This document shows positions 60,882 to 63,807 of a stretch of 64,000 nucleotides of DNA, piece after piece (position 1 is the first letter of the stretch; the number at the start of each line of letters is the position of its first letter). The stretch comes from Diphasiastrum complanatum (lineage: Eukaryota; Streptophyta; Lycopodiopsida; Lycopodiales; Lycopodiaceae). Under the pieces are notes generated by a model, which saw only the letters and a list, made by a program, of their open reading frames with translations, did not search any database and was not told the origin of the DNA. The position numbers and the translations under genes are program-made. The stretch lies in contig CM055111.1 in NCBI GenBank assembly GCA_029204225.1, positions 47,545,224 through 47,609,223 of the forward strand, given 5' to 3'.

Positions 60882-63807
60882 TCACCAATAATCTCTACAG
60901 GAACAGAAGCCATCCTTGAAATGGTGGGATATGTTTGCATCCATCACAATGATCTCACGCCTGACAATTTTAGAGATGATCTTTGTGGCATTGTGACAGT
61001 CACCACACACCCGAAGATTCTTCTTGATGCGAATAGTTGTCCCAGGAGGTGTGCTGATGAGCCCAAAAGCAAGGGCCAGCTTCTCACTGTGTTTACACAA
61101 AGCTTTCTCCTTCTCCTCATCCTCCACATTATCCAGCACAAAGCTTAAATCAGGTATATACCCTGCCTCCTTCATCAACCCTGCCAATCTATCCAGTTCA
61201 GCCAGAATCTCCTTGCTTTGTGGATGAGTTGCATCACCTACAACAAAGGCATGCACTTGCTTATCAACTTCGATCCAGCTGCACCCAGGCATTTTTTTCA
61301 CACCTGCATCCTTCATTTCATTTCTGATCTTTGCTAACTCGTCCTTCCTACCAGCAGCTGCATAGATGTTTGATAAGAGCACATAAGGTGCAGCATTCTT
61401 TGGATCCAACTTCACGACAAGATCAAAGGCACGTCTACCTATTTCCAGATGGCCATGGTTTCTAGCAGCACCAAGCAAACTCATCCAAACCACACTATCA
61501 GGTTGAATTGGCATTTTGTTGATAAAGAGCTCAGCATCAGCCCAGCACCCTGCACGCGCAAGCAGATCGACCATACATGCATAGTGTTCCTTGGTTGGAG
61601 AAACATCATGATCTTTACACATGGAATCAAAGACGTAACGGCCTTCATCTACTAGGCGAGAATGGGCACATGCAGAGAGAATACAAGTAAATGTGATATT
61701 GTTTGGCTGCACCCCTTCCTGTTTCATTTGCTCATACAGAGCAAGGGCCTCCTTGCCAAGCCCATTCTGTGCGTATCCCGCAATCATCGCAGTCCATGAA
61801 ACCACATTTCGTTCACTCATGTTGTTGAACAGTTCACGGGCATCCTCTATGCACCCGCATTTTGCGTACATGTCAACAAGGGTGCTCCCTACAATCACAT
61901 CCAACTGAAAGCCTCTTTTTATGATGTCAAAGTGGAGCTGTTTGCCCTGTTCCAGGGCTGCTAGGCTGGCACATGCAGAGAGAACAGAAGTAAAGGTGAC
62001 AATGTCTGGCTGCACCCCTTCCTGTTTCATTTGCTCATACAGAGCAAGGGCCTCCTTGCCAAGCCCATTCTGTGCATATCCCGCAATCATCGCACTCCAT
62101 GAAACCACATCTCGTTTACTCATGGAGTTGAACAGTTCACGGGCATCCTCTATGCACCCGCATTTTGCGTACATGTCAACAAGGGTGCTCCCTACAATCA
62201 CATCCGGCTGAAAGCCTCTTTTTATGATGTCAAAGTGGAGCTGTTTGCCCTGTTCCAGGGCTGCTAGGCTGGCACATGCAGAGAGAACAATAGTAAAGGT
62301 GACAATGTTTGGCTGCACCCCTTCCTGTTTCATTTGCTCATACAGAGCAAGGGCCTCCTTACCAAGCCCATTCTGTGCGTATCCCCCAATCATCGCATTC
62401 CATGAAACCACATTTCGTTCACTCATGTTGTTGAACAGTTCACGGGCGTCATCTGTGCACCCGCATTTTGCATACATGTCAACAAGGGTGCTCCCTACAA
62501 TCACATCCGACTGAAAGCCTCTTTTAAAGATGTCGGAGTGAAGCTGTTTGCCCTGTTCCAGAGCTGCTAGGCTGGCACATGCTTTTAGGACAACAACGAA
62601 CACAACCTTGTCTGGTGCTAAGCCTGTTCTTCGCATCTGCTGAAATAGATTAATAGCCTCCTCACCTTGTCCGCTATCAGCATATGCTGAGATGATAGCA
62701 GTCCACGAATACACATTGCGTTGAGGCATGTTGCTGAATACTTTGTGTGCATCCAGCACACTACCGCACTTGGAGTACATGTGAACAAGGGTGTTTGCTA
62801 AGAAAATATTTGAATCAAGTACACTTTGGGCTATAAGGGCATGCACTTGCTTGCCCTCTGCCAAGGCTTTCCTTTTGGAACACCCCTTCAAAAGGCAAAG
62901 ATACGCGCCAATTGGAGTTGTAGTAGTTTGCTGGACCATAAGCTCCACCATATGTAGTGCCTCTTCCAACCGTCCCTCCTGACAGAGTCTGCTCACCTTA
63001 TCACCATTGCAAAAGCAGTCGCGCTCCCTGCATGAATCATATAATAATCATAAAGAGATATGAACAAGTGTCAATTTTGAAAGACCCCGACCTAGAATCT
63101 CACATTCCACATTCAGAATAAAAGTATACCGTGATTTCAAGCCAGCACCAGATTGTACATGACCCAATGCCGCCATAGAAACCATCCTTTCATTCACCCA
63201 ACACGGATTCAGCCAACCATCAACCCAGAGGGACTCAAGTGTACTCTTATGTTTAAAGTCCGGGTGTTTTGAACTTTTCTGCATAACATAGACAGATCAC
63301 AGACATAGCTTCCAGTTACGAAAACAACTACAATAACCAGTCAGCCTCATACACATAATATCATAGCAGCATTAAAAGCTTTTCAAGTCAGAGGTGATTA
63401 GCCAAAGCAAGTGAAGCCTGAAATAAGTCCAAAAGCCACACCTTGGTAAATCTGTTGTCCCACCACTGCGATGGATTTGCGAAAAATTCCTTCCAGCGTT
63501 GTTCCATGTTAAGTAGTCTGCCTGCATACCCTAAGTGCAAACCAGAATGCATCAGAACTTTGGCAAAACATGGTTAAGGCATGAATGTCGATGTGGCTTG
63601 AAACATCCCTGCAAATTAATCTCTCGTCCCCCCAACCAGGGAATGAATAAAAGAGCATGACAAAAACATAAGCATACCCGAGGCCTTCAGTGTTGAAAAG
63701 CCAGGTGACCCCTGTTCTGCTGGTTTTGGCCTGGCATGAACCCAAGGAGGATTGAACCGATTGTTGATCCCCCTCGAAAATCTCCAAATTGTGATGCGTA
63801 AGGCCAT
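60882..63807 (-). CDS. PPR-DYW RNA-editing factor with N-terminal OSB-like PDF motif
   Basis: Four exons on the minus strand: 63807-63678, 63521-63442, 63278-63130 and 63027-60882, all with GT-AG introns and phases 1, 0 and 2, giving 834 residues. The ATG has A at -3 and G at +4. Residues 1-20 (MALRITIWRFSRGINNRF...) are basic and lack acidic residues, like a mitochondrial or plastid transit peptide. Residues about 52-100 (WKEFFANPSQWWDNR, then PDFKHK and SLWVDGWLNPCWV) resemble the PDF motif of plant organellar ssDNA-binding OSB proteins. From about residue 155 come PLS-type PPR triplets, then E motifs with a PGCSW box (about 700-704), then a DYW deaminase with HSEK (766-769), CGDC (794-797) and terminal RDYW. 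This family binds organellar transcripts and converts C to U. The tail is canonical, not the KP variant linked to U-to-C editing. The target is unknown. The large exon is uninterrupted and looks functional. Confidence 0.93.
61701..62609 (-). repeat. Three 303-bp tandem PLS units inside the PPR gene
   Basis: Three consecutive units (62609-62307, 62306-62004, 62003-61701) each encode one L(35)-S(31)-P(35) triplet, or 101 residues. The last two and a half units are almost identical in DNA. Recognisable anchors such as atgatgtcaaag recur at 61921 and 62224, with a diverged version at 62527, so the period is exactly 303 bp. This points to recent in-frame duplication or gene conversion. It also produces repeated antisense open frames of 96 codons, which are not genes. 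Confidence 0.93.
63442..63521 (-). other. PPR gene exon 2, first half of the PDF-like motif
   Basis: The exon encodes residues 44-70, including RWKEFFANPSQWWDNRFTK. The acceptor follows gtatgcag and the donor is AAG|gtgtgg. Phase 1 in and phase 0 out match exon 1 and exon 3 exactly. The paired tryptophans and the following PDFKHK in exon 3 (63130-63278) are the features that recall OSB proteins. Confidence 0.85.

Follow-up and report, generated by a model that had tools for sequence, protein, structure and literature searches.

The PDF motif of OSB proteins is described as a stretch of 50 amino acids with a Pro-Asp-Phe sequence, present in one to three C-terminal copies and confined to green plants (PMC6963530, PMC4166229). 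The motif of OSB1 is reported to suffice for binding to single-stranded DNA (ssDNA; PMC6963530), and AtOSB1 and 2 are reported to favour ssDNA over dsDNA or RNA (PMC4166229). For PPR proteins, the available sections of an overview of the Physcomitrium set draw a transit peptide ahead of the array and, for P-type proteins, mention additional domains, among them an RRM at the N-terminus.

We analyzed a stretch of 64,000 nucleotides of the Diphasiastrum complanatum genome (contig CM055111.1, positions 47,545,224 to 47,609,223), hereafter the window. An earlier note had proposed that three small exons of this stretch, upstream of a long PPR exon, supply a basic leader and an OSB-like PDF motif to a PPR-DYW editing factor. 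Joined in frame, the three small exons and the long PPR exon encode a predicted product of 834 aa, in which a PDF-type module of about 50 residues lies N-terminal to the PPR array (Table 1). Elsewhere in the window (601-59085) there are 13 other ORFs of at least 150 aa; 10 were scanned by domain, of which eight had retrotransposon domains (Pol_BBD, rve, gag_pre-integrs, SH3_retrovirus, RVT_2) and two had no match.

Table 1. Features of the predicted gene, in window positions.
Feature	Position	Strand	Evidence or remark
Exon 1: leader, MALRITIWRF...LKASG	63678..63807, 130 nt	-	Weakly conserved among paralogues
Remnant of an upstream, second PDF module within exon 1 (INNRFNPPWVHAR)	63730..63768	-	PDF half-profile
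Intron 1	63677-63522	-	GT-AG
Exon 2: PDF module, first half (WKEFFANPSQWWDNRFTK), the module itself starting at 63495	63442..63521, 80 nt	-	
Intron 2, interrupts PDF module	63441-63279	-	GT-AG
Exon 3: second half of PDF module (PDFKHK...LWVDGWLNPCWV, up to 63174) and linker	63130..63278, 149 nt	-	
Intron 3	63129-63028	-	GT-AG
Exon 4: PPR array, E, E+, DYW; stop at 60882-60884	60882..63027, 2146 nt including stop	-	
PLS-type PPR array, 14 motifs and an S-like one at the N-terminal end	61497..63005	-	Borders set by us
Three tandem 303-bp units, each one P-L-S triplet, about 94% alike	61665..62582	-	
E and E+ motifs	61188..61457	-	PF20431, E 4.8e-26; PF20430, E 3.2e-6
DYW deaminase domain: HSE, CGDCH, terminal DYW	60885..61163	-	PF14432, E 1.4e-41

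All chains from any ATG to the long exon were enumerated with simple plant splice-site weights. Six chains were open, and the four-exon chain was the top scorer, with 21.3 against 14.8 for the runner-up; slightly wider limits gave nine open chains and left the top one unchanged. When the upstream stretch was shuffled by dinucleotides (n = 400), some open chain arose in 140 of the 400 shuffles and none equalled 21.3, the best coming near with 20.4. An alternative acceptor for exon 2 at 63530, 9 nt upstream, would keep the frame and add 3 aa; it scored 0.36 against 3.81 and was rejected.

Exons 2 and 3 show selection-like, codon-like conservation across paralogues. The upstream region was aligned in 41 rows (the window and 40 others from the same genome), and identities by codon position were calculated for 32 distinct sequences (the window and 31 more), with identical rows merged and the poorly aligned L033-L035 and L023 dropped. 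In these 32 sequences, pairwise identity at codon positions 1, 2 and 3 was 91.4, 92.3 and 80.0% in exon 2 and 90.3, 90.4 and 82.0% in exon 3; introns were 80.5-84.9% identical. Exon 1 gave 65.0, 68.9 and 70.9% in the same set, and an ATG occupied its aligned place in 12 of the 41 rows. This exon is the weakest-supported part of the gene model and should be read as putative.

Splice dinucleotides were retained at D1, A1, D2 and A2 in 36, 37, 40 and 41 of the 41 aligned rows, respectively (the window and identical copies included), at D3 in 37 (plus two with GC) and at A3 in 37. Exons 2 and 3 differed in length from those of the window by a multiple of 3 in every aligned row except L043 and L044, whose exon 3 lengths are altered; these are broken copies, as is L036, with a stop inside the module. 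Three near-identical places (L033, L034, L035) had the second half of the module, and the first half was not recognisable in the sequence examined. The top-scoring chain, the 0 of 400 shuffles and the codon-like conservation of exons 2 and 3 agree with the earlier claim that the small exons join the long PPR exon in phase, and they confirm, at the level of DNA sequence, a predicted four-exon PDF-PPR-E-DYW gene.

The PPR-DYW identity of the long exon, also proposed earlier, was upheld by Pfam matches to PPR, E, E+ and DYW and by alignments to solved PPR-DYW chains. In its 704-residue frame, residues 94-704 align with the solved synthetic PPR-DYW protein 9kfx (E 2.4e-271), and the DYW domain matches the DYW chains of the solved structures 7o4e, 7w86 and 9kfx. 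The P-L-S array, E, E+ and complete DYW domain, ending in DYW and with its active-site motifs intact, place the protein in the PLS-type PPR-E-DYW class. An AlphaFold model of the long exon, made with no alignment, was of low quality, having a mean pLDDT of 63, with the last ~138 residues below 50. By the PPR code the P and S motifs would read Y G n A Y n G G n A A at positions -16 to -6. The three tandem triplets differ at 3 of their 6 code residues, compared with 15 of all 101 residues (p = 0.041), which is compatible with repeat copying followed by retargeting of specificity.

Fourteen copies of the module, picked for diversity, were aligned. They delimit a domain of about 50 residues in which W, D, R, P-D, H-K, L-W and P are invariant and W-W, F and W-V nearly so (F in at least 90%), and the invariant residues persist in copies just 49-51% identical to that of the window. 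These chosen copies thus have the length and the conserved Pro-Asp-Phe by which the PDF motif is defined. The module alone, as an 84-residue piece, matched no Pfam family at E up to 1. No relatives were found in IMG/VR, GTDB genomes or plasmids (viruses, bacteria, archaea), and none that convinced in the PDB (best E 0.39).

To place the module, the OSB-like loci of the same genome were examined. An SSB family search gave 13 matches, one of which (C13:49246103) was left out of inspection. At three chromosomal loci, on C4 (+), C12 (-) and C13 (-), two SSB-like domain halves lie on two ordered exons, with best half scores of 24.4, 23.7 and 24.3 bits. As these fall short of the Pfam cut-off of 26, the term "OSB-like" is our own reading. 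Contig C1396 holds an apparent copy of the C13 locus, and C12:18102062 is the SSB second half alone. The matches on C14 (L059) and C1 (L060) had no PDF within 5.5 kb each (best profile score 6.3 bits); L059 reads like what we take to be a mitochondrial SSB of bacterial type.

A PDF exon was found 33 kb downstream of the C13 SSB exons, on the same strand, and with it as query another was found 12 kb downstream of the C4 SSB exons, again on the same strand. No such exon was present downstream of the C12 locus among the matches listed. By eye, translations at and after the second SSB exon showed no PDF in 5.0 kb (C4) and 1.9 kb (C13). Both PDF exons run from a PDF half through a short tail to a stop; the short stretches inspected showed no PPR. 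A module half-profile built without them scored 55.8 and 45.1 bits on the two, and shuffles gave at most 10.1 (the maximum being from the 1720 of 2000 shuffles reported). They begin at the same module position and in the same phase as exon 3 of the window, that is, at the intron 2 acceptor. Exon 3 is itself among the at least 150 matches of the C13 PDF exon (E 2.8e-7).

By chance, 0.008 of 150 matches would be expected within 60 kb downstream of the three loci and 0.005 within 40 kb, these distances having been chosen post hoc. A combined chance figure of 1.3e-5 was discarded; it counts two matches of one search, yet the C13 exon was the query. The C4 and C13 PDF exons likely belong to the same genes as their SSB exons. 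The family link that the earlier note had proposed is therefore supported within this genome: the module matches the PDF exons of two of the three OSB-like loci by profile, intron position and phase. At these loci (C4:14861440-14880933, C13:6165121-6218671) the exons are 7 to 33 kb apart, and transposon-like reading frames occupy part of the C4 stretch between them. The presence of OSB-like loci in a lycophyte fits poorly with a loss of OSB in Pteridophyta, as has been proposed (PMC4166229).

The combination is not confined to the window. Searches of the 1.745-Gb assembly (5176 contigs) placed the 73-residue module at 155 sites or more (best 150 of 907 candidates scored) and gave at least 150 DYW matches (best 150 of 472 candidates scored). 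These are counts of matches, not of distinct genes, because small contigs probably carry allelic copies. A listed module lay within 3 kb upstream on the same strand for 65 of the 150 DYW matches listed, window gene included, and for 54 of the 119 listed on contigs C1-C23. Conversely, among the 149 module matches listed, which exclude the window's own exon-2 row, a listed DYW followed within 3 kb on the same strand for 65 and on the opposite strand for none; within 10 kb the numbers were 68 and 1. No listed DYW followed within 3 kb in 84 of the 149, or within 10 kb in 81, which the extent of the list may explain, or other genes may carry the module.

Twenty DYW genes were inspected, the first ones listed for C1-C23 once apparent second copies had been skipped, in 8 kb each including the upstream region. 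The module was present on the gene's strand in 13 of them and on the opposite strand in none. The other seven showed no module in the 8 kb examined, so editing factors can do without it. Three genes (L009, L012, L014) had three clear copies each and L023 had three weaker half-matches; the rest had one or two, L013 having two. Weak upstream half-copies of 15-28 bits occur in several paralogues. For several module halves the open frame is as long as that of the DYW downstream (for example C9:7359 with C9:9906, 959 aa), which suggests that module and DYW share one frame.

A one-off fusion is ruled out by these frequencies (65 of the 150 DYW matches listed, 13 of the 20 genes inspected), and with it goes, for this plant, the earlier statement that PPR-DYW proteins normally lack the PDF motif. 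The searches show a large family of predicted PDF-PPR-E-DYW genes in this genome, and its size is a lower bound.

The window gene itself probably descends from a member with two modules. Within its leader, the relic INNRFNPPWVHAR scores 18.7 bits against the PDF half-profile, for which 5000 shuffles gave at most 8.8, and is identical in 12 of 13 residues to the upstream module copy of L024; the upstream module would therefore have been truncated, its end now lying in the predicted leader. No additional module was found in the 784 bases past the window end (L029). As for the basic leader of the earlier note, its charge stands, the first 30 residues containing six K/R and no D/E, but the segment includes the remains of a second PDF module.

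We are highly confident that the gene encodes an organelle C-to-U editing factor, one of a large PDF-PPR-E-DYW family, and that its module and the PDF motif of OSB are homologous. Since the intron position is shared, PPR-DYW genes most likely captured OSB exons, in that direction, and the captured module would then have spread, duplicating to up to three copies alongside the expansion of the PPR-DYW family. The protein would be imported into an organelle, where the PPR array would select one site by its code and the DYW domain would deaminate the C at that site. PPR arrays lie with their N-terminus towards the 5' side of their RNA site, so an N-terminal module could grip nucleic acid just upstream. 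There the PDF module would hold single-stranded nucleic acid beside the 5' end of the bound site, presumably RNA and with no sequence specificity, raising affinity and residence time. We regard this clamp role, taken by itself, as plausible at slightly under even chances. Taken as a whole, the account of family, exon capture and clamp is the best explanation that we have, and we lean modestly towards it.

The earlier note had put forward added RNA or ssDNA affinity or recruitment to nucleoids as possible roles. The partner held by the module could also be DNA. A nucleoid tether, in which the module binds organelle ssDNA at transcription bubbles or R-loops and keeps the editor where transcripts emerge, would make editing co-transcriptional. 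The reported ssDNA preference of OSB1 and OSB2 argues for DNA rather than RNA as partner, and so against a clamp on RNA (PMC4166229). The match of the module to the PDF exons at OSB-like loci also favours such a tether. Against it, we know of no requirement for nucleoid placement in DYW editing factors, and we consider the tether a possible but doubtful reading. Rather unlikely, as we see it, is the extended form in which C-to-U editing is tied to organelle DNA throughout the class, whose proteins have one to three PDF modules: the modules would hold the enzyme on the ssDNA of the transcription bubble or R-loop, nascent RNA would be edited on emergence, and module number would tune the process.

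The module might instead be a passenger, left from captured OSB exons that once gave a start and an organelle-import leader, now doing little and staying as part of the N-terminus. Upstream copies do decay, as the relic in the window leader and the weak half-copies of several paralogues indicate, and exon 1 is poorly conserved. The module adjacent to the PPR array behaves otherwise: its codon positions 1 and 2 are conserved above position 3 and the introns, and its invariant residues are retained in the copies of 49-51% identity noted above, which makes this explanation quite unlikely. That exons 1-3 are unused or part of another transcript, with translation beginning inside the long exon, is very improbable and was dismissed together with chance, for although exon 1 is weakly supported and the model is drawn from DNA sequence, no shuffle equals the best chain, the arrangement and splice sites are common to most aligned copies, and module halves share their open-frame length with the DYW downstream (C9).

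The predicted family unites, within single polypeptides and across many genes, two otherwise separate machineries of plant organelles, that of genome upkeep (OSB) and that of RNA editing (PPR-DYW). It points to a novel means by which editing enzymes might grip or locate their targets. Genes with 0, 1, 2 or 3 modules ahead of similar PPR arrays form a natural series that would allow one to measure how a non-specific nucleic-acid clamp affects a sequence-specific editor, and PDF modules are possible add-ons for synthetic editing factors. In the open-access literature (titles and abstract openings, most subscription journals being outside its scope) we found no report of a PDF module in PPR proteins. 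This domain architecture, which combines two known families and occurs widely in the genome, thus appears to be new.

The product resembles the OSB proteins (Arabidopsis OSB1-4) in its PDF module of about 50 aa, in one to three tandem copies across the family, and the OSB-like loci of this genome in the intron position inside the module. It differs from OSB proteins in that the module is N-terminal and is followed by PPR-E-DYW. In a Pfam scan of the 834-aa product (E up to 1), the SSB/OB-like domain that precedes the C-terminal PDF in the OSB family (PF00436) was absent from the best 25 of 26 families; the product thus lacks the OSB architecture. With canonical PLS-type PPR-E-DYW editors, such as moss PPR56, Arabidopsis At3g63370/OTP86 and the synthetic 9kfx, it shares the PLS array, E, E+, DYW, HSE and CxxC-type motifs; it departs from them in the PDF module in front, of which descriptions of moss PPR proteins, in their available sections, make no mention. 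PPR4, as described, is a P-type splicing factor with an RRM instead of a PDF module and with no DYW domain, and it shares with the product studied here a general nucleic-acid-binding domain ahead of the PPR array (PMC9459714).
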